Positions 51,339 through 64,000 of a DNA stretch of 64,000 bases are shown here, in pieces. The notes beneath the pieces are model-generated. The model made no database searches and was not told where the DNA came from. It saw nothing but the letters and a program-made list of their open reading frames with translations. Source of the stretch: Amycolatopsis echigonensis (lineage in GTDB: Bacteria > Actinomycetota > Actinomycetes > Mycobacteriales > Pseudonocardiaceae); NCBI RefSeq assembly GCF_014174495.1, contig NZ_JACJHR010000010.1, positions 1-64,000 on the forward strand. Reading direction: 5' to 3'. The translations under genes were made by a program, and so were the position numbers. Numbering within the stretch: the stretch's first letter is position 1; every line of letters begins with the position of its first letter.

Positions 51339-52610
51339 TCAGTCCCAGCGGATCGGGAGGCTCTTGATCCCGTTCTGGAAGTTCGACCGCAGCCGGCGGG
51401 GTTCGCCCGCGAGACGGACCTCGCCGAGCTGGTCGAACACCGCCGCGAACAACGCCCGCATCTGTATCCGCGCGAGGTGCGAACCGAGGCAGAAATGCGG
51501 GCCGTGGCCGAACGTCAGGTGTTCGCTCGGCGCGCGCGTCACGTCGAACACGTCCGGGTCGGGAAAGACCGTCTCGTCGCGATTGGCCGAGGAAAACCAC
51601 ACCACGACCTTGTCCCCGGCCTTGATGTCCACATCGGACAGCCGGGTGTCCTGTGTCGCGGTGCGGCGAAAGTGCATCACCGGCGTGTGCCAGCGCAGCA
51701 TTTCTTCGACCGCACCGGGAAGGAGGCTCCGGTCGTCGAGCAGCTTGCGGTACTGCTCGGGATGCGCGAGCAACGCGGCCATGCCGCCGGGGATGCCGTT
51801 GCGCAGAGTTTCGTTGCCAGCTACGGAAAACAACCAGAAAAGGTTCTCGAACTCCTCGATCGACACGCGACCGCCGTCGTCGTCCACGTACCGCATCAGG
51901 TTGCTCATCACGTCGTCGCCGGGGTGCGCGCGTTTGTGCTCGCCGAGCGCGTGCGCGTAGGCGTAGAGATCCGGCATTCCGGCGCGGCTGCGCGGATCTG
52001 GCATCTGCCCGTCCGGTCCGGGTTCCGGGCGCACGGCGAGCGCGGCACGGGCGAGGTCGGTGACGTCGTCGGCTCTGACTGTCGCGCTCACCGCGTATTC
52101 GGCGTCCTGGAAGCCGATCACGCGGTTGCTCCAGTCGAACATCAGCCTGCGGTCCTGCTCGGGCACGCCGAACACCTCGGCGAGCGTGAGCAACGGCAGG
52201 TCGGCGGCGATGTCCTTGGCGAAATCGCATTCGCCGCGGTCGGCCACCGCCGCGACGAGATCCCGTGCCCAGCCTTCGATCCGTTCGGCGATCCGGCCGA
52301 CCGCACGCGGGGTGAACGCCTTGGTGAGCAGCCCGCGCAGCCTGCCGTGCTCGGGCGGGTCCATGTTGAGCATCATCCGGCGCACGTATCGCAAGTCCTC
52401 GGCGGTGGCCGGGTCGCGGATCTGTGTGCCGCCGAGCTGCGACGAGAACACCGCCGGGGTGCGGAGCACGTGCCGCACGTCGGAATGGCGCAGCACCGCC
52501 CAGAAGTCGCCGATCCGCGTCACCGGCGTTTCCCGGCGCAGACGGGCGAGCAGGTCGTAAGGCACGCCCGTGACGTAGGTGTCCGGGTCGGCGATGACAG
52601 CACTCGACAC
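51339..52610 (-). CDS. cytochrome P450 (CYP124/125/126-like)
   Basis: This 423-residue soluble P450 has the I-helix AGNETLRN, the ExxR motif EEMLRW and the heme loop FGHGPHFCLGSHLAR with the ligand C374. The segment MLNMDPPEHGRLRGLLTKAFTPRAV resembles steroid- and lipid-oxidising mycobacterial CYP124/125/126 relatives. No redox partner gene is adjacent. It is divergent from an alpha/beta hydrolase gene 47 bp away. Substrate is unknown. Confidence 0.88.
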   Translation of the reverse strand: MSSAVIADPDTYVTGVPYDLLARLRRETPVTRIGDFWAVLRHSDVRHVLRTPAVFSSQLGGTQIRDPATAEDLRYVRRMMLNMDPPEHGRLRGLLTKAFTPRAVGRIAERIEGWARDLVAAVADRGECDFAKDIAADLPLLTLAEVFGVPEQDRRLMFDWSNRVIGFQDAEYAVSATVRADDVTDLARAALAVRPEPGPDGQMPDPRSRAGMPDLYAYAHALGEHKRAHPGDDVMSNLMRYVDDDGGRVSIEEFENLFWLFSVAGNETLRNGIPGGMAALLAHPEQYRKLLDDRSLLPGAVEEMLRWHTPVMHFRRTATQDTRLSDVDIKAGDKVVVWFSSANRDETVFPDPDVFDVTRAPSEHLTFGHGPHFCLGSHLARIQMRALFAAVFDQLGEVRLAGEPRRLRSNFQNGIKSLPIRWD

Positions 52611-52657: not shown

Positions 52658-53386
52658 GTGGAAAAGCTGAAGCTGCGCGTCACCGGACAAGGCGAACCAC
52701 CGGTCCTGCTCCTGCACGGGCTCGGCGCGACTGGCGCGGTCTGGGACGGCCTCGCCGGCCAGCTCGACCGGCGGCTGCTCGCGCCGGACCTGCCCGGGCA
52801 CGGCGGCTCGCCGCGGCTGCCCGAGTACACGTTCGAGGCGCTCGCGGCCGCGGTCGCCGATGCGCTGGACGAGCCCGGTCCGGTCGCCGTGCTCGGCCAT
52901 TCGCTCGGCGGTGTCGTCGCGCTGGAGCTGGCGAGCGGCCGCTACGGGCTCGACGTCAGGAGCGTGCTGGCGGTGGGCATCAAGGTGGAGTGGAGCGATG
53001 ACGACCTGGCCCGGGCCGCCGCGATGGCAGCCCGTCCGCCGCGACTGTTCGATACCCGAGAGGAGGCCGAGACCGCCTATCTGAGGGTCGCCGGGCTGAC
53101 CGGTCTGGCTCCGGCCGACCCGGACGGTGTGACCGAAACCGCGGGCGGCTGGCGGCTGGCCCTGGACCCGCCCACCTTCGGCGTCGGCCGTCCGGACATG
53201 CCGGGCCTGCTGGCCGCCGCGCGCTGCCCTGTGGTGCTCGCCACCGGCGAAAACGACCCGATGTGCCGTCCCGAGCAGCTGCGCTCTCTCGTTCCCGAGG
53301 CAGTGGTCCTGGCCGGGCTCGGGCACAACGCGCACGTTGAGGACTCGGCCGCGGTAGCGGCACTGCTCACCCCGCGGGCCGACTGA
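52658..53386 (+). CDS. alpha/beta hydrolase
   Basis: This 242-residue protein has the oxyanion region LLLHGLGATGAVWD, nucleophile elbow GHSLGG, acid in ATGENDPMC and catalytic His in GLGHNAHVED. An esterase or related activity is likely. GTG start at 52658. The TesB gene follows 21 bp later on the same strand, so both may be co-expressed and act on acyl substrates. Confidence 0.85.
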   Translation: MEKLKLRVTGQGEPPVLLLHGLGATGAVWDGLAGQLDRRLLAPDLPGHGGSPRLPEYTFEALAAAVADALDEPGPVAVLGHSLGGVVALELASGRYGLDVRSVLAVGIKVEWSDDDLARAAAMAARPPRLFDTREEAETAYLRVAGLTGLAPADPDGVTETAGGWRLALDPPTFGVGRPDMPGLLAAARCPVVLATGENDPMCRPEQLRSLVPEAVVLAGLGHNAHVEDSAAVAALLTPRAD

Positions 53387-53407: not shown

Positions 53408-54232
53408 GTGACGACGATCGATCCGACCCGGACCGGGCTAGACCAGCTCCTGAAGCTCGAACCGCTCGAGCTGAACCTGTTCCGCGGCTGGTGCCACCAG
53501 GGTTCGCCGCAGCGGGCGTTCGGCGGTCAGGTCGCGGCGCAGGCGCTCACCGCGGCCGGCGCGACCGTGCCCGCCGCGCGGCGCGTGCACTCGCTGCACG
53601 GCTATTTCATCCGGGGCGGCCGCACCGACATGCCGATCATCTACGAGGTCGAACGCACCCGCGACGGCGGTTCGTTCACCACGCGCCGGGTCGTCGCGAT
53701 CCAGAACGGCGAGAGCATTTTCAGCCTGTCCGCGTCGTTCCAGACCGAGGCGGAAAGCAGTGCGCACCAGGCGCGGATGCCGGACGTCCCGGCCCCGGAC
53801 GAAGCGGGCGTCGTCGAGCAGGACCGCTCGCCGATCGTTCTGTCCGCCATCGAAGTCCGCTTCGTCAGCAACCCGGAAACCGGCCTGCCCGACACCGGCC
53901 GCGGTCCGCGTCAGCAGATCTGGGTGCGGGCGAAGGACGCATTGCCGGACGCCCCGCTGGCGCACGTCTGCGCGCTCACTTACATCTCCGACATCCGGCT
54001 GGCGGGCACTGCCCTGCTGCCCCACCGCGACGACCCGGGCGAGCCGCAGCTGACGTCGCTGGACCACGCGGTGTGGTTCCACCGTCCGTTCCGCGCGGAC
54101 GAATGGCTGCTTTTCGACATGGAAAGCCCCAGCTACGCGAGCACTCGGGGGTTGACCCACGGCGAATTCTTCACCACCGACGGGCGGCTCGTCGCCTCAG
54201 TGACGCAAGAAGTACTGCTGCGCAGGCGCTGA
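53408..54232 (+). CDS. tesB: acyl-CoA thioesterase II
   Basis: This 274-residue double-hotdog enzyme hydrolyses medium- to long-chain acyl-CoA. Visible family segments are FRGWCHQGSPQRAFGGQVAAQAL, RRVHSLHGYFIRGG, GGSFTTRRVVAIQNGESIF and, at the C-terminus, LDHAVWFHRPFRADEWLLFDMESPSYASTRGL. Length fits bacterial TesB. GTG start at 53408. Confidence 0.92.
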   Translation: MTTIDPTRTGLDQLLKLEPLELNLFRGWCHQGSPQRAFGGQVAAQALTAAGATVPAARRVHSLHGYFIRGGRTDMPIIYEVERTRDGGSFTTRRVVAIQNGESIFSLSASFQTEAESSAHQARMPDVPAPDEAGVVEQDRSPIVLSAIEVRFVSNPETGLPDTGRGPRQQIWVRAKDALPDAPLAHVCALTYISDIRLAGTALLPHRDDPGEPQLTSLDHAVWFHRPFRADEWLLFDMESPSYASTRGLTHGEFFTTDGRLVASVTQEVLLRRR

Positions 54233-56571: not shown

Positions 56572-57013
56572 CGCCGCCTACCGGTACCTGTGGAAACGCG
56601 CATACCGCAACGGTATCGCGAACCGGGCGAGAGCTGCATAATCTGCGGCCCGGCACGCCCGCCAGTGACCCAGGCAAGCCCGGGGCACAGCAGCGCCACT
56701 GCCCCTCCATGACCAAGCGAGGAGAGCGGCGTCCCCGGCCGTGCCCACGCCGACCACCCCAACGCCGCTCCCGGCACAACCAGCGCCCCAACGCGTTGTC
56801 CGGCAAGCAACCCCGGCCATTGATAACCGCCACCACCGGGTTGAAACACGCCACGCATAACTCGCCGATTCGATTGACAACCCTTCCAGCCCCAGCAGAG
56901 GCTGGTCACAAGCTGCCCATGCCCGGAGCGGTCCGGTTACCCTGTCAACGAGCCGAAAACCGCACCGAAAGGCCTACCCGGCACTCGTCCCGACTTCTCT
57001 GGTGAGGAAAACG
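56572..57013. other. 442-bp gap upstream of the SnoaL-like gene
   Basis: Contains the TetR operator and presumably the promoter of the SnoaL-response regulator pair. Open frames inside it are not protein-like. Confidence 0.5.
56602..56616. promoter_or_regulatory. TetR operator
   Basis: ATACCG-CAA-CGGTAT is a perfect 6-bp inverted repeat with a 3-bp centre, 31 bp before the TetR start. It matches the usual short TetR operator pattern. Confidence 0.7.
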
Positions 57014-57631
57014 ATGTCTCTCGAGCACCGCGCACCGTCCGACCCGGCCGACGACAGCCAGGACCGGCGGGTGGCCGCGCTGGAGGAGACCGTCGCGGGG
57101 CTGGTTCGGCGGGTCCGGGTGCTCGAGGCCGAGGCGGAGATCCGCCGGGTGCAGGCACGCTACATGTTCCTCTGCGATACGCCGTGCCCGGAGTTCGGTG
57201 TCGCGGGCGACGACGAGCGGATCGACCTCATCATGGAGCTCTACACCGACGACGCGGTCTGGGAGGGCGTCGGCGAGTACTACGACGGGCAGTTCGGGCG
57301 GGCGGAAGGCGCCGCCGCTATCCGGGCGCATTTTCAGCGGTTCTGGGGCGAGAAAAAGGACCCCGCGCTTCTGCTCAACGCGCATTACCTCACCTCCGAG
57401 CAGATTCACGTCGACGGTGACGAGGCCACCGGGCAATGGATCCACATGCAACCGTGGCTGTTCTCGGACGGGAAAGCGCTCCTGCGGTCCAGCCGGTTGA
57501 ACAACGCGTTCCGCCGCGTAGACGACACCTGGCGGATCACCCGCACTCGCACCGAAAACGTCTTCATCGCCCCGCTGCCAGAAGGCTGGGCCAGCGACTA
57601 TCCCTCGGCCTCGGTGCTGATGAAGCCATGA
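57014..57631 (+). CDS. SnoaL-like/NTF2-fold protein, IacI-like
   Basis: This 205-residue protein has an N-terminal coiled segment (RRVAALEETVAGLVRRVRVLEAEAEIRRVQARYMFLCD) and an NTF2-like cone (LIMELYTDDAVWEGVGEYYDGQF, TGQWIHMQPWLFSDGKALL). The ATG at 57014 has GAGGA 5 bp upstream. Its stop overlaps the response-regulator start (ATGA). In the indole-acetate cluster IacI is a SnoaL-like protein, so this is the likely counterpart; its step in the pathway is uncertain. Confidence 0.7.
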   Translation: MSLEHRAPSDPADDSQDRRVAALEETVAGLVRRVRVLEAEAEIRRVQARYMFLCDTPCPEFGVAGDDERIDLIMELYTDDAVWEGVGEYYDGQFGRAEGAAAIRAHFQRFWGEKKDPALLLNAHYLTSEQIHVDGDEATGQWIHMQPWLFSDGKALLRSSRLNNAFRRVDDTWRITRTRTENVFIAPLPEGWASDYPSASVLMKP

Positions 57632-58242
57632 GCGACGACCCGGTCGTGCACGTGGTGGACGACGACGAGGACCTCCGGCAGTCCCTGGTGTTCCTGCTGG
57701 AGAGCGTCGGCGTGCAGGCGTTGACGTACCCGGACGCCCAGACGTTCCTCGACGAGTTCGATCCGGCCGAACCCGCGGTCGTGATCGTCGACGTGCGCAT
57801 GCCCGCGATCAGCGGTTTTCAGCTGCAGGAAAAGCTCGCCGAAATCGACTGTCCGGCTCCGCTCATTTTCTGTTCCGCGCATGGCGACATTCCAATGTCG
57901 GTCCGTGCGCTCACCGCGGGGGCGGTCGATTTCCTGGAGAAGCCTTACCAGGCCCAGCGCATGGTCGAGGTGGTCCAGACGCAGCTCATCGAGGCCCGCC
58001 GACGGTTCGCGGAGCATGCGGAACGGCAGGCGGTCCGGGCTCGGCTCGACACGCTGACCCAGCGCGAGCGTGAGGTGCTGCGGCTGGTGGTCGACGGGAT
58101 GCCCAGCCAGGCGATCGCGCACCGGCTCGGCACCAGCGTCAAAACCGTCGACGTGCACCGGGCGCGGATCAAGGCGAAGACGTCGGCGGACAGCCTGGGG
58201 ACGCTCGTCCGCGACATCCTCACCCATCGCGTCACCGTTTGA
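57628..58242 (+). CDS. FixJ/NarL-type response regulator
   Basis: This 204-residue protein has a receiver domain with acidic HVVDDDEDL, phospho-acceptor D55 in VDVRMPA and FLEKPYQ. It ends with a LuxR-type helix-turn-helix (LTQREREVLRLVVDGMPSQAIAHRLGTSVKTVDVHRARI). It is translationally coupled to the SnoaL-like gene. The PAS histidine kinase 2 kb away is the likely partner. Two-component control of iac genes is known in some proteobacteria. Confidence 0.9.
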   Translation: MSDDPVVHVVDDDEDLRQSLVFLLESVGVQALTYPDAQTFLDEFDPAEPAVVIVDVRMPAISGFQLQEKLAEIDCPAPLIFCSAHGDIPMSVRALTAGAVDFLEKPYQAQRMVEVVQTQLIEARRRFAEHAERQAVRARLDTLTQREREVLRLVVDGMPSQAIAHRLGTSVKTVDVHRARIKAKTSADSLGTLVRDILTHRVTV

Positions 58243-59446
58243 GCGCGGTCTCCACCCAGCGGCCGGTGCCCAGCAGGGCAGCTTCACCGGAGGCACTGCC
58301 GACCAGCTGCAATCCCAGCGGCAATCCCGCCGCGTCGCGCAGTCCAGGCACGGCGATGACCGGCAGGCCCAGCGCCTGCCACGGGCGGCTGAGCACCGGG
58401 TCTCCGGTCGCGGCCAGGCCGGAAGGGGCCGAACCAAGCGCGGCTGGGGTGAGGACGGCGTCATAGCCGGTCACGATCTCGGCGAGTCGCGAAGCACCGG
58501 AAGCGACGACGTCCAGTGCGGCCTCGTATTCCGCGCGCGGCATCTCCGCGCCGGTACGCAGCAGTTGCGCCAGCGGGTCGCTGAGCCGGTCCGCGGAAGC
58601 AAGCTCAACGGAACGTTCCCGCGCCGCTTCGTAGGCCATCACCACGGGATGCGCGGCAGTCAAAGCAGCAACCACTGCCGGATCCGGGAATTCGTCGACC
58701 ACGGCACCGGCGGCTCGCAGCTGAGAAACCGCGGTACGAAGCGCCTTCTCCATAGCTGGACTCACATCCGGCGAGGACCACACCAGCAATCGCTGTACCG
58801 AAGCCTCCACCTCCGGCTCCCCGGACAGCGCGGACCAGGCCAAGGCCAGATCGGAAACCGTCGCGGTGAACATGCCGTGGCTGTCCAGGCTCGGGCTCAG
58901 GCCGGTGACACCGTCGACCGGGAACCGGCCCCGGCTCATGACCAGCGAGGCGACTCCGCAGAACGCGGCCGGTCGCGTGACCGAACCTGCGGTTTGGGAC
59001 CCGAGCGCCAACGGGACGTGTCCAGCGGCAACGGCAGCGGCGGAACCGCTGGAGGAGCCACCGGGCGTGTGGCCAGGCGCAGCGGGGTTATCCGTGGGGC
59101 CGGGCGCGAAGAAGGCGAATTCCGTGGTGACCGTCTTGCCGATCGGCACCGCACCGGCCCGCCGCCATTCGCGGACGATCGAAGCGTCCACAGTGGCCGG
59201 TGGAGCGTCCGCACGCAACACCGAACCGCAGCGGGTCGGAAGTCCGGCCAAGTCGATGATGTCCTTGACGCCCAAGGGAACCCCGCCGATCGGACCTGCC
59301 GAGGCAGGCACGTAAGCAGACGAAACCCAAGCGTTGAAAGAAGCCGCAGCGATTCGCGAGCGGGCCTCCGCCACGGCGGCTTCCGGCGTTGTCCGGCCGG
59401 CGGCGAGATCGGCGACCAGGGCGCGCAGCGACCACGGACCGGTCAC
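58232..59446 (-). CDS. amidase-signature hydrolase, IacH-like
   Basis: This 404-residue enzyme has the Ser-cisSer-Lys triad: K61 in PLGVKDII, the Ser-rich loop GGSSSGSAAAVAAG (129-142) and S155 in GSQTAGSVTRPAAFCG. It cleaves an amide, or an ester. IacH in the indole-acetate cluster is an amidase; it may release indole-acetate from conjugates. The GTG start overlaps the stop of the small upstream gene. Its 3' end overlaps the convergent response-regulator gene by 11 bp. Confidence 0.85.
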   Translation of the reverse strand: MTGPWSLRALVADLAAGRTTPEAAVAEARSRIAAASFNAWVSSAYVPASAGPIGGVPLGVKDIIDLAGLPTRCGSVLRADAPPATVDASIVREWRRAGAVPIGKTVTTEFAFFAPGPTDNPAAPGHTPGGSSSGSAAAVAAGHVPLALGSQTAGSVTRPAAFCGVASLVMSRGRFPVDGVTGLSPSLDSHGMFTATVSDLALAWSALSGEPEVEASVQRLLVWSSPDVSPAMEKALRTAVSQLRAAGAVVDEFPDPAVVAALTAAHPVVMAYEAARERSVELASADRLSDPLAQLLRTGAEMPRAEYEAALDVVASGASRLAEIVTGYDAVLTPAALGSAPSGLAATGDPVLSRPWQALGLPVIAVPGLRDAAGLPLGLQLVGSASGEAALLGTGRWVETALKR

Positions 59447-59700
59447 GGCTGGGTCCAGGCGGCGTCGGCGGTCCAGTAGTCCATGCCGCTGGCGCTGACC
59501 GCGTGCCGCCACTCGGACGTCCGGCGCAGCAGCGGCTCGACGCGGGCGGTGGCCTCGTCGGCGGCGTCCGGCCCGTCGGCCGGGGCCTGCCAGTGCACCC
59601 AGTCCAGCTCGCGGCCGTGCTCGTCGTGCACGAAGAGGTCGACGTGCCGCCAGCCGTAGCCGTGCGTGTCGTTGTAGCAGGTCAGGGTCATCCGTTCCAC
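59443..59700 (-). CDS. small Trp/His-rich protein of the iac-like cluster
   Basis: This 85-residue soluble protein (for example YNDTHGYGWRHVDLFVHDEHG and ELDWVHWQAP) has no recognised family. The GTG start at 59700 follows GAGGAG. It lies 9 bp after the flavin reductase gene and overlaps the amidase start (GTGA), so all three form one transcript. The content of His, Trp and Asp suggests ligand or metal binding (inference). It is not part of the classical iac gene list as I know it. Confidence 0.6.
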   Translation of the reverse strand: MERMTLTCYNDTHGYGWRHVDLFVHDEHGRELDWVHWQAPADGPDAADEATARVEPLLRRTSEWRHAVSASGMDYWTADAAWTQP

Positions 59701-59709
59701 GGGTTCTCC

Positions 59710-60216
59710 TCAGGCGCTGAGTGCGGTAAGCCGGTGGAAACGGCGCTGGAAGTACACCAAAGCACCGGTGTCCGGCGCGGTCAGCACCTTCTCGATCTCC
59801 ACGAACAGCACCGAATGCGACCCGTGTTCCTGTTCGGCGACGATCCGGCCGACCAGCGACGCGGCCGCGCCGCGCAGGACCGGGGCGTCCTCGCTGTCGA
59901 GGTCCCAGCAGTCCTGATCGAACCGTTCGGCGGTCGGCACCTTCGTCGCGCCGGCAAAGTGCATGGCCAGGTCCTCCTGGCCGGGGCCGAGGACGTTGAC
60001 GCAGACCCGGCCGTTGCCGACCAGGATCGCGTGCGACCGGCTCGACCGGTTGACGCACACGAGCACGGTCGGCGGGCTGTCGGTGACCGAGCAGGCGGCG
60101 CTCACCGTCATCCCGGCGAGGCCGTGCGGGCCTGCGGTGGTCACGACGTTGACGGCCGCGGAGAGGTTGGCCATCGCGGTGCGGAATTCGCGCTGGGTCC
60201 GGGTCAGCTCGGACAC
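59710..60216 (-). CDS. flavin reductase, HpaC/IacG-like
   Basis: This 168-residue FMN-binding split-barrel protein has FRTAMANLSAAVNVVTTAGPHGLAGMTVSAACSVTDSPPTVLVCVN, the classic N-terminal part, and HSVLFVEIEKV near the C-terminus. It supplies reduced flavin to a partner monooxygenase, here most likely the IacA-like enzyme at 61.9 kb. GTG at 60216 with AGGAGG 4 bp upstream; the longer frame is rejected. Confidence 0.88.
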   Translation of the reverse strand: MSELTRTQREFRTAMANLSAAVNVVTTAGPHGLAGMTVSAACSVTDSPPTVLVCVNRSSRSHAILVGNGRVCVNVLGPGQEDLAMHFAGATKVPTAERFDQDCWDLDSEDAPVLRGAAASLVGRIVAEQEHGSHSVLFVEIEKVLTAPDTGALVYFQRRFHRLTALSA

Positions 60217-60301
60217 GGTGCCTCCTAGTACTGGGGCCGGGGCTGTCCCGACCGTACAAAGCCGCACCGCTCGCGCGATATCGAGAACTTCCCCGGCACA
60301 G

Positions 60302-60315
60302 CTGAAGAATTCCTA
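60302..60315. promoter_or_regulatory. possible response-regulator motif, copy 1
   Basis: CTGAAGAATTCCTA lies 86 bp before the flavin reductase gene and overlaps the 3' end of the kinase gene. A similar CTGAAGAAATCCCCTA lies before the IacA-like gene. Confidence 0.25.
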
Positions 60316-61770
60316 ACCCGGGCCGGTCGCGGGCAGTGCGAAGCCGAAGCGCGAACCGCCGCCGGCGCGGTGTTCGGCCCAGATCGTCCCGTGCTGGCGG
60401 GTGATGATGCGGTGGCTCAGTGCCAGTCCGATGCCGCTGCCGCGCTCCTTCGCGGTGAACGACTCGTCGAACGGGTTGCGCGGGAAGCCGCGGCCGCGAT
60501 CGTCCACGGTGACCACGCCGGTGTCGCCGTCGCGGCGCGTGGTGAGCACGAGGCTGCGCCGCTGCGGCGGACACTGCGCCATTTCCTCGATCGCGTTGAA
60601 GCACAGGTTCAGCACGACCTGGCCGGTCAGCACGCGTTCGCAGTGCACCGGCACCGCGTCCGCGGACCGGTCGAACGTCACCTCGATCGCGGCCGGTTCG
60701 GCTCGCAACCGCACGAAATACAGGCATTCCTCGACGATCTCGTTGAGGTCGGCGACCTGCTCCACGTGCTCCAGATGCCCCACGAACGCCCGCACGGACG
60801 CCACGATCTGGCTCGCCCGTTCGATCTGCCGGACGGCGCTGTCGATGCCGTACACGACCGGCGCGGCATCGAGCGTCCGCGACCGGACACCGGCCAGGAA
60901 GTTGCCTGCCGCGGCGAGCGGCTGGCTCAGCTCGTGCGCGATCGCCATCGCCATGTCGCCCATCGCGGTGTAGCGGGCCAGGTAGTTCTCCCGGTGCAGC
61001 TCCCGCTCGCGCCTGACCTCGCCGCGCACGCGTTCAGACACGTCGTGGAGCAGCAGCAGAAACGCGTCTCCACCAGGCTCTCGAAGCCGTTCGACGCTGC
61101 CTTCCAGCCACACGCGACCCTGGATTTCCAGTCGCACCTGGGTGGCAGGCGTCGCTCGTTCGCGGACCTCCTCCCAGGTGGCCGGACGGTCTTCGAGGCG
61201 CAGACCGGCGTAGTCGGTCAGGCGGCCGAGCGGCTCGTCCGGCGTCGCGCCGAACAGCGCGACCGCGGAGTCCGTGGCGAACCGCAGCTCGCCCGAACCG
61301 TCGAGCATCAACGCGACCGCCGACGTCTGCCGGGCCAGTGCGTCGACCCAGGACGTGGTCAGCCGCAGCTCACGCTCGATTTCCTGCTCGCGTTCGATAT
61401 CGCGGAACTGCACCATCACCGCCGGGCCCTGGGCCAGCTCGACCCGGGTCGCCACCGCGTCCGTCGGAATGACCCGGCCGGATTTCGTGCGGTAGTGCCA
61501 TTCGATCCGGCTGACGCCCTTGTCGACCGCCTCCTGCAGCCACGCCCGCCCGATCACCCGGTCGTACTGCTGCGCGGAGCTGCTCATGTGGTTCGCCTTC
61601 AACGGCCGCAGCTCGGTGACGCTCCACTCGAGCATCTCGCAGGCAGCCGGATTGGCCCACAGGATGTTCTTCGTCGCGCCGTCGTGCACGAGCACGCACG
61701 TGCGGCTCGCGTTGAGCATCGCGACGAAATCGTGCGTCGTCAGCTCGGGCGCGCGCGGGTCTGCCTCCAT
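60313..61770 (-). CDS. cytosolic PAS-PAS sensor histidine kinase (FixL-like)
   Basis: This 485-residue kinase has two PAS domains (about 15-125 and 140-255). The H-box AHELSQPLAAAGNFLAGVR is typical of the FixL/DctB type, and the ATPase domain has LNLCFNAIEEMA, DDRGRGFP and GSGIGLALSHRII. No membrane helices are seen, so it senses a cytosolic ligand, possibly indole-acetate. The ATG at 61770 is chosen; GTG at 61806 is possible. It pairs by type with the FixJ-like regulator at 57.6 kb. Confidence 0.88.
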   Translation of the reverse strand: MEADPRAPELTTHDFVAMLNASRTCVLVHDGATKNILWANPAACEMLEWSVTELRPLKANHMSSSAQQYDRVIGRAWLQEAVDKGVSRIEWHYRTKSGRVIPTDAVATRVELAQGPAVMVQFRDIEREQEIERELRLTTSWVDALARQTSAVALMLDGSGELRFATDSAVALFGATPDEPLGRLTDYAGLRLEDRPATWEEVRERATPATQVRLEIQGRVWLEGSVERLREPGGDAFLLLLHDVSERVRGEVRRERELHRENYLARYTAMGDMAMAIAHELSQPLAAAGNFLAGVRSRTLDAAPVVYGIDSAVRQIERASQIVASVRAFVGHLEHVEQVADLNEIVEECLYFVRLRAEPAAIEVTFDRSADAVPVHCERVLTGQVVLNLCFNAIEEMAQCPPQRRSLVLTTRRDGDTGVVTVDDRGRGFPRNPFDESFTAKERGSGIGLALSHRIITRQHGTIWAEHRAGGGSRFGFALPATGPG

Positions 61771-61805
61771 CGGCTCAGCGTAAAGCCCCTGGCTGGCGGC
61801 TCGCA

Positions 61806-61821
61806 CTGAAGAAATCCCCTA
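61806..61821. promoter_or_regulatory. possible response-regulator motif, copy 2
   Basis: CTGAAGAAATCCCCTA lies in the divergent region between the kinase and IacA-like genes, 85 bp before the latter. It resembles the motif before the flavin reductase gene. Confidence 0.3.
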
Positions 61822-61905
61822 CGCCCGCTCAGGCACTACCAATTCCCGCGCGGCGGCGGGGTTCGTACCGTCGGAGCGACCGCACCGGCATTCTGAGGAG
61901 CAGCG

Positions 61906-63027
61906 ATGAGCGAAGTCACCATGGAGGAGGTGCTCGCCGAGCTCGCCCAGCGCAAGGACGAGTTCCAGCAGCAACGCTACGTTCCGCGCGACTTCGTCGA
62001 CCGGCTCAAGCAGCTCGGCGTCTACCGGGCCAGCACTCCGGCGAAGTTCGGCGGCAATCCGCTTCCGCCCGCCGAATTCCTCCGCCTGATCGAGCGGATT
62101 TCCACAGTGGACGGTTCGACCGGCTGGGTCGCCAGCTTCGGCTCGTCGCTGATCTACCTCGCCGCGCTCCCGCTGGACACGCAGGCCGAGCTGTACAAGG
62201 ACGGTCCGGACGTCGCGTTCGCCGGCGGTCTCTTCCCGGTCCAGCCCGCCCCGGCGACCGAAACCGGCTTCCGCGTGGACGGCCGGTGGAAGTTCGCCAG
62301 CGGCTGCATGGGCGCGGACATCCTCGGCGTCGGCATCCCCGGAGACGAATCGACCGGCGGGAAACCGCGCACCGCGCTGCTGCGGCCCGAGCAGGTCGAA
62401 ATCGTCCAGGACTGGGACGTCGTCGGCATGCGCGGCACCGGTTCGTTCGACCTGGTCGTGCGCGACGTCGAGGTCCCGCGCGAGTGGACGTTCATCCGCG
62501 GCGGCGCGCCCACGGTGGACGAACCGCTCTACCGCTACCCCACCATCGCTTATGCCGCACAGGTTCTCGCCATCGTCGGCGCGGGCGTCGCGCGCGCCGC
62601 TCTCGACCACGCCCGCGAGGTCGGCGCTGGCTACACCGGTGTCACCGGTGCGCCGAAGCTCGCCGACCGCGGCTATTACCGCACCGGGTACGCCGACGCC
62701 GAGGCCGCGCTGCGGTCCGCTCGCGCCTGGTTCTACGAGGTCAGCCACGAGGTCTGGGACACCGTCGTTTCCGGCGACGAAGCCACCGACGAGCAGAACG
62801 CCCAGTTGCGGCTTTCGTCCGCGCACCTCGCGAAGACTGCGTCCGAGGTCGTGTCGAAGCTCGTCGAGATTTCCGGCACCGCGCCGATCTACTCGACCCA
62901 TCCGCTGCGTGGACTTCAGGGCGACGCACTGGTACCCAAGCAGCATGCGTTCCTGGGCCCGGCCATCCACGACGCCGCCGGTGCGGTCCTCATGGGACAG
63001 CCGCCGACCAGCCCCGGATTCCGCTGA
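61906..63027 (+). CDS. iacA: acyl-CoA-dehydrogenase-fold flavin monooxygenase, IacA-like
   Basis: This 373-residue protein belongs to the group-D two-component monooxygenases. It has FGG near residue 48, DGSTGWVASFGSS, DGRWKFASGC, DWDVVGMRGTGSFDLVVRDVEVP and a C-terminal helix bundle ending YSTHPLRGLQGDALVPKQH. IacA hydroxylates indole-3-acetate using reduced flavin. The neighbours (iacB-like, Rieske oxygenase, flavin reductase, amidase) support this over related hydroxylases such as HsaA. ATG 61906 follows GAGGAG. Confidence 0.8.
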   Translation: MSEVTMEEVLAELAQRKDEFQQQRYVPRDFVDRLKQLGVYRASTPAKFGGNPLPPAEFLRLIERISTVDGSTGWVASFGSSLIYLAALPLDTQAELYKDGPDVAFAGGLFPVQPAPATETGFRVDGRWKFASGCMGADILGVGIPGDESTGGKPRTALLRPEQVEIVQDWDVVGMRGTGSFDLVVRDVEVPREWTFIRGGAPTVDEPLYRYPTIAYAAQVLAIVGAGVARAALDHAREVGAGYTGVTGAPKLADRGYYRTGYADAEAALRSARAWFYEVSHEVWDTVVSGDEATDEQNAQLRLSSAHLAKTASEVVSKLVEISGTAPIYSTHPLRGLQGDALVPKQHAFLGPAIHDAAGAVLMGQPPTSPGFR

Positions 63028-63060
63028 CCAGCCACCACCACGACGAGGAGTCTCCGACTG

Positions 63061-63440
63061 TGAGCACGCAGCCCCTGCGGGTGCTTTTCTGCATCGGCAT
63101 CAACCAGAACTTCTTCGACCTGCCCGCCGACGGCATCACCATCGGCGACGTCTGGCAGGCCTTCGTGTCCATGATGGACCAGCTGAAAGCGTTGCCGGGC
63201 ATCACTTTCATCGGCGATATCGACGATGACGCGCACATGGTCGGCCCGTCCGACGGCTGGCCGTGGACCTGTTACATCCTCGCCGACGCCGACAGCCAGG
63301 AAACCGTCAAGGCCGGGTGCAACCTGCTGCGCACCACGGAGGTCGGCAGCAATGGCGTCAAGCTGTGGCGGTTCGCCAAGATCGAAGCCCGGATCGGCCG
63401 TCCGCTGACCGTCCGCGAAGACGTCGAACTGCCCGACTGA
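63061..63440 (+). CDS. iacB: IacB-like small protein
   Basis: This 126-residue protein (LRVLFCIGINQNFFDLPADGITIGDVWQAF, DIDDDAHMVGPSDGWPWTCYILADA, TTEVGSNGVKLWRFAKIEARIGRPL) sits between the monooxygenase and Rieske genes. That is exactly where iacB lies in known indole-acetate clusters. Its function in the pathway is not settled. GTG start at 63061 with GACGAGGAG upstream. It is 33 bp after iacA. Confidence 0.7.
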
Positions 63441-63452
63441 ACCGGAGACCTG

Positions 63453-64000
63453 ATGACTGAGAACGCCAGCGTTCCCGCCGATTTCGCCGAAAGCGACCGC
63501 GTCGCCGCCCGGCTTTACACCGACCCGGAAATCTTCGAACGCGAGATGACGCAGATTTTCGAGCGTTCGTGGGTGTGGGTCGCGCACGAAAGCGAATTGG
63601 CCCAGCCGGGGAACTTCAAGTCCACCTATGTCGGCCGCCAGCCGGTAATCGTGACACGGGACCGCAAGGGCACGCTGCACACGATGCTCAACCGCTGCCG
63701 CCACCGCGGCGCGAGCCTGTGCGAGAAGCCGAGCGGCAAGGCCAACGGCTTCACCTGCCCGTACCACGCCTGGAGTTACGGCCTCGACGGCAAGCTTCGC
63801 GGCATCCCCTACCCGGACGGCTACGAAAGCGTGTTGGAAAAAGGCGAGCTGTCGCTGAAGAAACTCCGCACCGAGTCGTACGGCGGCATGATTTTCGCGA
63901 CCTTCGCCGAGGACGGCGAATCGCTTGAGGACTTCCTCGGTGACGCGAAACTGTGGATCGACCGTTTCATGAAGCAGGGCGGCGGCTACCCGATCAAGGT
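63453..64000 (+). CDS. iacC: Rieske ring-hydroxylating oxygenase alpha subunit, IacC-like (cut by window edge)
   Basis: The frame is open from ATG 63453 to the window end (182 residues seen). The Rieske 2Fe-2S motif CRHRGASLC...CPYHAWSYGLDG is complete, preceded by IFERSWVWVAHESELAQPGNF. The catalytic mononuclear-iron domain lies outside the window. It would oxidise the hydroxylated indole-acetate intermediate on the way to catechol. It starts 12 bp after iacB and is surely in the same operon. Confidence 0.85.
   Translation, partial: MTENASVPADFAESDRVAARLYTDPEIFEREMTQIFERSWVWVAHESELAQPGNFKSTYVGRQPVIVTRDRKGTLHTMLNRCRHRGASLCEKPSGKANGFTCPYHAWSYGLDGKLRGIPYPDGYESVLEKGELSLKKLRTESYGGMIFATFAEDGESLEDFLGDAKLWIDRFMKQGGGYPIK

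Follow-up and report, generated by a model that had tools for sequence, protein, structure and literature searches.

Does Amycolatopsis echigonensis carry a complete pathway for the degradation of the plant auxin indole-3-acetate and, if so, what turns it on? The question is raised by the window analysed here, a stretch of 64,000 bases (bases 1-64000 of the 147,068-base contig NZ_JACJHR010000010.1, from a genome of 9.66 Mb), whose right end cuts through a group of genes resembling the iac genes of auxin-degrading bacteria. Reading of the contig on to position 81,000 revealed iacD, iacE and iacF, so that counterparts of all nine genes from iacA to iacI are present. The locus is thus most probably a complete iac cluster, predicted from its gene content to convert indole-3-acetate into catechol and likely turned on by a neighbouring two-component pair.

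A complete iac gene cluster

An earlier note on this DNA had recognized iacA, iacB and iacC in canonical order (61906-63027, 63060-63440 and 63453 to the window end, all on the + strand), accompanied by a flavin reductase (-), an amidase (-), a SnoaL-like protein (+) and a sensor kinase (-), and all of these sit where it had placed them. Its claim that most of the iac set was present turned out to be an understatement, as the contig beyond the window holds the three genes that it had expected to the right and the set runs from A to I. The note had also described two divergent units around a sensor kinase: the split and the kinase stand, but gene spacing argues for three transcription units, and the kinase is not alone, its partner being a response regulator gene at 57628-58242 (+) that had been overlooked. 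The features of the locus are as follows.

57002-57631, +: iacI counterpart, SnoaL-like protein of 209 amino acids (SnoaL_4, 72 bits; 33% identity to the A. baumannii locus L063)
57628-58242, +: FixJ-type response regulator with receiver and LuxR-type domains; its ATG overlaps the iacI stop
58232-59446, -: iacH counterpart, amidase (Amidase, 191 bits); the GTG start at 59446 is a guess, as the frame stays open beyond it
59710-60267, -: iacG counterpart, flavin reductase (Flavin_Reduct, 125 bits; HpaC, 186 of 206 bits, under the cut-off)
60313-61806, -: PAS histidine kinase without membrane segment (PAS at 26-137, HATPase at 395-494); start GTG 61806 or ATG 61770
61806-61823, +: CTGAAGAAATCCCCTACG, predicted response-regulator binding site in the kinase-iacA gap
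61906-63027, +: iacA, flavin-dependent monooxygenase of acyl-CoA dehydrogenase build (by profile matches and locus comparison)
63060-63440, +: iacB, 126 amino acids, no Pfam or NCBIfam match
63453-64724, +: iacC, alpha subunit of a Rieske dioxygenase, with Rieske domain; the window ends inside this gene at 64000
64717-65220, beyond the window on the same contig: iacD, with Ring_hydroxyl_B domain
65217-65960, beyond the window on the same contig: iacE
65982-66938, beyond the window on the same contig: iacF
67119-68444, beyond the window, behind iacF: MFS transporter
68467-69036, beyond the window, behind the MFS transporter: helix-turn-helix (HTH) cupin regulator

The response regulator and amidase (iacH) genes lie tail to tail, and the kinase gene is divergent from iacA. 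According to the text of Conway et al. (2022; PMC9613470), iac-type loci are marked by iacA, iacB and iacI, with iacC and iacD adjacent, while iadA and iadB are exclusive to the iad type. All three iac markers occur in the cluster, iacI being the weakest (33% to L063, 32% to L070), and the iacC and iacD homologues are adjacent (63453-64724 and 64717-65220). None of the genes assigned between 56026 and 69036 is of iadA or iadB type, an observation made without a search aimed at either gene. The regulators encoded in that interval are of the TetR, FixJ and HTH-cupin types, and no MarR gene was found in the cluster; MarR does not figure among the iac markers named above.

Comparison with two loci from other phyla supports these assignments. 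Identities to the Acinetobacter baumannii locus (L063) are 44, 53, 56, 38 and 49% for the products of iacA to iacE and 39, 27, 30 and 33% for those of iacF to iacI; we assume that the L063 genes are those tested in A. baumannii, one of the species for which iacA has been shown to be required according to Conway et al. (PMC9613470). The corresponding values for a Klebsiella variicola plasmid (L070) are 47, 51, 56, 40 and 51% for A to E and 36, 45, 31 and 32% for F to I. In L070 a MarR gene lies upstream of a single run H-A-B-I-C-D-E-F-G, in which iacB is annotated by name. Existing database labels agree, with several actinobacterial IacB orthologues named as such in UniRef and some IacA orthologues labelled indole-3-acetate monooxygenase at JGI. 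By IacA, the closest named records come from Amycolatopsis circi and A. dendrobii (99% each), followed by A. nivea (98%); the locus of A. circi DSM 45561 (L008) shares the layout of the window.

To the left of the cluster, three further genes were recognized by eye from their translations: a cytochrome P450-like gene (51339-52610, -), an alpha/beta-hydrolase-like gene (52658-53386, +) and a TesB-type thioesterase-like gene (53408-54232, +).

Distribution and reduced clusters

A search of genome contigs with IacA as probe, using search patterns that favour close relatives, returned 53 loci, all actinobacterial by title; the addition of 10 of 388 matching plasmid-collection records gave 63 loci, 57 of them actinobacterial. 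Gene presence in each locus was judged by set bit-score limits. On this basis, iacA to iacF are found in 40 of the 57 actinobacterial loci and the full set from A to I in 35, the order ABCDEF is kept on the + strand in 36, and kinase and regulator accompany the genes in 44. This grouping is more than chance. The split layout is usual in these loci, the kinase being divergent from iacA in 44/44 loci with the pair.

IacB was detected in 54 of 297 genomes drawn from the family of the window, 46 times with at least 64% identity along almost its whole length. A sample of 396 genomes from the phylum gave 5, one being the genome of the window and the other four showing 31-48% identity. It is therefore common in the family and patchy elsewhere, with orthologues also in Streptomyces, Rhodococcus, Arthrobacter and Nocardioides. 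Two loci have unusual arrangements. On the 393-kb linear plasmid pYLL1 of Rhodococcus sp. YL-1 (L064), the iac genes are split into I-C-D and A-B-E-F runs. In Paraburkholderia largidicola (L062:12001-13800), an IacA relative (51%) occurs with a flavin reductase (53%) and, in the 25 kb covered, no iacB to iacF.

Some relatives carry much less than the full set. In Actinophytocola gossypii (L029) the reductase, kinase, regulator, site, A, B and E are kept, and no IacC match was obtained in the whole genome at an E value of 0.001; the position of its IacB matches that in genome G031, rated 99% complete. Thirteen of the 54 IacB-positive family genomes had no IacC at an E value of 1e-100, and ten of these 13 stretches were examined. 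L089 holds A-B-E with the site, and L092 holds A-B-E-G with kinase, regulator and the site in opposite orientation. L091 and L096 keep B-E, which in L095 and L097 is accompanied by a reductase and a protein distantly similar to IacA (24-26%). Counting against the pattern are L090, which has A, B and F and no close E, and L093, L094 and L098, in which B is broken, lone or very weak.

Since iacA-B-E is kept without iacC in a few relatives, IacB tends to travel with IacE. The same tendency appears in the 51 loci with IacB, of which 51 have IacE, 50 IacC, 50 IacD, 47 IacI, 45 IacG, 44 IacF and 41 IacH. Co-occurrence favours, short of proof, a partnership of IacB and IacE, a matter on which two studies disagree (PMC7225977). 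That the two genes stay together in reduced loci merely as neighbours by descent, with no joint function, is an alternative of real weight, although we lean against it. IacE of C. glathei produced dioxindole-3-acetate in E. coli without IacB, according to the text of PMC7225977, and the lack of a close E beside A, B and F in L090 points the same way. Most full loci have iacC and iacD between B and E, so that a clean loss of both is needed. However, B is found with E in 51/51 loci having B and in 6 of the 10 IacC-free stretches, including cases where the neighbouring IacA-like protein is a distant one; and an older study cited in PMC7225977 obtained more product with IacB plus IacE.

Related gene groups were seen around other members of these families. 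In L095:6070-12082 and L097:8747-11308, IacB/IacE-like genes adjoin a gene for a distant IacA-like acyl-CoA dehydrogenase, a flavin reductase and a LysR regulator, with a coenzyme A (CoA) ligase, a thiolase-like gene and a ChsH2-type gene in addition in L095; these stretches possibly encode a related indole pathway via CoA esters. Eight IacA relatives (L045, L046, L047, L049, L050, L051, L057 and L069; five from Nonomuraea, two from Pseudonocardia and one from Amycolatopsis) form a clade with support 100/99. No B to F genes occur in the stretches examined, and IacB is absent from the seven genomes of this clade that were searched. L045 and L049, in which flavin reductase, kinase, regulator and site all persist, may represent a single monooxygenase under two-component control.

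A two-component system and a conserved site upstream of iacA

The kinase and regulator make up a two-component system of FixL/FixJ build, the kinase with a phospho-acceptor histidine and an ATPase domain, the regulator with a receiver aspartate and a LuxR-type domain. The domain build is alike; the window pair falls under the equivalog cut-offs (FixL 150 of 850 bits, FixJ 200 of 255 bits). Catalytic residues are kept in both proteins. By our own assignment the phosphorylated residues would be H291 of the kinase and D53 of the regulator, and D53 and K103 are among the regulator residues kept in at least 95% of 47 relatives.

The kinase has no membrane segment, its highest 19-residue hydropathy mean being 1.09. 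Pfam places a PAS domain at residues 26-137, and a second PAS stretch appears only at an E value of 0.01. By our count, residues kept in at least 95% of 47 kinases number 43 of 111 at 26-136 and 9 of 111 at 150-260, and the PAS piece is 75-100% identical to that of the window in 36 loci. As the most conserved sensory part of the kinase, the PAS domain is the likely sensor of the inducer.

The gap between kinase and iacA contains a site, CTGAAGRAATCCCCTACG, much of whose core is invariant or nearly so over 28 non-redundant rows. It is the single match in the window when up to 3 mismatches are allowed, with 0.18 expected. A locus was scored as having the site when it lay at most 350 bases upstream of iacA with at most 2 mismatches to the 14-base core. 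Across the 63 loci the site is present in 42 of 46 with the kinase-regulator pair and in 2 of 17 without it (in Actinobacteria alone, 42/44 and 2/13), and in 17 of 1814 random 350-base pieces, a background that includes extra copies near catB and transporter genes. Two mismatches occur in five of the 42 sites, among them that of L028, which lies on the opposite strand.

The extra copies, several with two mismatches and with orientation not required, lie before catB in L013-L016 and L020, before a DUF485-symporter pair in L018, L021, L022, L056 and L064, and before MFS genes in L019 and L058. The operon concerned in L013 and L014 encodes a catechol 1,2-dioxygenase over the cut-off and a muconate-cycloisomerase relative under it. 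In L064, two-mismatch copies precede both the DUF485/acetate-symporter pair and iacC. For nine of the 72 sites in all, none of the tested genes lies within 450 bases. The genome of the window has a perfect copy of the core only at iacA; among the five copies with one mismatch, four fall within open reading frames and one in a convergent gap. The site is predicted to be the operator of the kinase-regulator pair, dedicated to iac in this species and common to catechol or uptake genes in some relatives.

A site serving the kinase promoter, or a regulator other than the FixJ-type one, would explain part of these observations, but we consider it rather unlikely. In the 40 loci with both genes near, 1-37 bases separate the site from the extrapolated start of the kinase, and L089 has the site with iacA-B-E and, in the 19 kb covered, neither kinase nor regulator, L039 and L065 being similar. 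Against this, 11 of the 13 actinobacterial loci that lack the pair also lack the site, and it recurs in front of catB and transporter genes that lie far from the kinase. Moreover, the kinase frame of the window contains a stop inside the site, so the site is not conserved as coding sequence.

Several points weigh against our reading of the cluster and its control. L055 and L064 have the pair and no site near iacA; L039 and L065 have the site and no recognized pair, L065 with a response-regulator gene at its far edge. No copy of the site occurs within about 1.5 kb of either catechol 1,2-dioxygenase gene in the window's genome. The loci are related and the counts are not independent, the 43 site rows being reduced to 28 after near-identical ones were dropped. 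The products of iacD and of iacF to iacI show modest identity (27-39%) to their A. baumannii counterparts, and the literature searched yielded no actinobacterial iac cluster tested by mutation.

Substrate of the cluster and identity of the enzymes

The reading of the locus as an auxin pathway has to be weighed against other substrates. It is distinctly unlikely that the main substrate is a different 3-substituted indole (indole-3-propionate or a compound derived from tryptophan, for example), with auxin only incidental, because according to the text of PMC9613470 it is the full set from A to I that accompanies growth on auxin in characterised strains. That IacA is a steroid (HsaA) or phenol-type hydroxylase, in a cluster degrading another aromatic compound, can practically be dismissed on sequence grounds: HsaA is the best NCBIfam match of IacA (135-136 bits to NF045629) and some depositors label such proteins HsaA (H25, H30, H33), yet this lies far under the cut-off of 450 bits, the genome's own HsaA is encoded elsewhere with 696 bits, and iac proteins of other phyla are closest to the window IacA among four paralogues compared.

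The assignment of IacA as an Iac-type monooxygenase, which the earlier note had made dependent on the exclusion of these hydroxylases, therefore holds. The p-hydroxyphenylacetate hydroxylase model likewise gives 92 bits for a cut-off of 650. IacA of the A. baumannii locus scores 335 bits to the window protein and 136 and 105 bits to two paralogues in the genome, the second of which is HsaA. The closest solved chain to IacA is Rv3094c (188 bits), HsaA reaching 101 bits.

For IacC, identities as a benzoate, anthranilate or phenylpropionate dioxygenase were rejected, its scores against the NCBIfam equivalog models being 228 of 672, 208 of 830 and 206 of 781 bits, respectively; its best solved chain is 3-phenylpropionate dioxygenase (181 bits). 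A second Rieske dioxygenase stretch in the genome (G000:C242:37572-41074) has 68% DNA identity to iacC over 313 bases and may be a benzoate-type operon; one of the genome's two catechol 1,2-dioxygenase genes is located some 3 kb away. Both catechol 1,2-dioxygenases score over the cut-off and are encoded elsewhere than in the cluster.

Relation to known systems

The iac locus of P. putida 1290 (iacABCDEFGHI with the MarR gene iacR) has the same nine catabolic counterparts and an auxin-to-catechol route (PMC9613470). In contrast to it, the window has a kinase and a response regulator, no MarR gene found in the cluster, and three units. A putative two-component system (LuxR-type regulator and IacS) has been described beside iac in Paraburkholderia phytofirmans PsJN and four Pseudomonas strains (PMC11630574), in a gene order that differs from that of the window. 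Cupriavidus sp. P-10 and Burkholderia arboris also encode relatives of the kinase (38%) and regulator (52-53%), and their kinase gene lies upstream of iacA in divergent orientation; in these records the site was not found near iacA (4 or more mismatches). The iad loci of Variovorax, Achromobacter and Bradyrhizobium share homologous iacCD-type genes and aerobic auxin breakdown, but the Variovorax locus is without iacA and the iad route passes through isatin to anthranilate (PMC9613470).

Actinobacteria are one of five phyla listed with iac by Conway et al. (2022; PMC9613470), and Nocardiaceae iac loci were catalogued by rhizoSMASH (2025; PMC12462448). These loci share phylum and pathway type with the window, and the text of the two papers gives no layout, regulators or control site for them; the characterised iac loci in the text of the papers cited here are proteobacterial. 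Searches of the literature, the site being searched by its 9-base cores, gave no published description of the site, the actinobacterial layout or the reduced A-B-E clusters, and no paper joining Amycolatopsis, iacA and indole-3-acetic acid. As figures, supplements and subscription papers lay outside their scope, this is weak evidence of absence. The pathway is thus of a known kind, while the shared site and the stripped-down versions in relatives appear undescribed.

Rhodococcus strain PBTS2 grows on auxin, and its authors detected no iac homologues, as stated in the text of PMC7002392. Actinobacterial queries might find iac genes in PBTS2 that proteobacterial queries missed. A protein search returned an IacA relative (P0226, 75%) labelled Rhodococcus fascians.

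Proposed mechanism and implications

Gene content, order, similarity and the conserved site were observed here, and the enzyme steps are carried over from other bacteria (text of PMC9613470 and PMC7225977). In the mechanism that we propose, auxin would enter the cell, perhaps via the MFS transporter encoded behind iacF, and auxin or one of its products would be sensed by the PAS domain of the kinase. The phosphorylated regulator would then bind the site in the divergent kinase-iacA gap and promote transcription of iacABCDEF, probably also of kinase-iacG-iacH. IacA, with reduced flavin from IacG, would oxidise auxin; IacE, likely with IacB, would yield dioxindole-3-acetate; and the IacC/IacD dioxygenase with the reductase IacF would lead on to catechol, whose ring would be opened by the two catechol 1,2-dioxygenases. 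IacH and IacI are given no particular step in this scheme.

More tentatively, and with rather less than even confidence, the comparison of loci suggests that actinomycetes control auxin catabolism by a two-component circuit that senses auxin in the cytosol, acts through a dedicated operator and may drive catechol and uptake genes as well in some species. In a few relatives the circuit would serve a reduced iacA-B-E(-G) cassette that merely disarms auxin to dioxindole-3-acetate and does not exploit it as food, IacB being retained as the partner of IacE.

This locus provides actinomycetes with a full candidate pathway and a defined putative control site, and the laboratory with a potential cytosolic auxin sensor. 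An organism carrying it could alter plant auxin levels, as the earlier note had suggested. The role of IacB is disputed in print, and relatives in which A, B and E persist while the dioxygenase is missing permit a direct test of it. These relatives also suggest that certain soil actinomycetes may inactivate the auxin of plants and yet not live on it.

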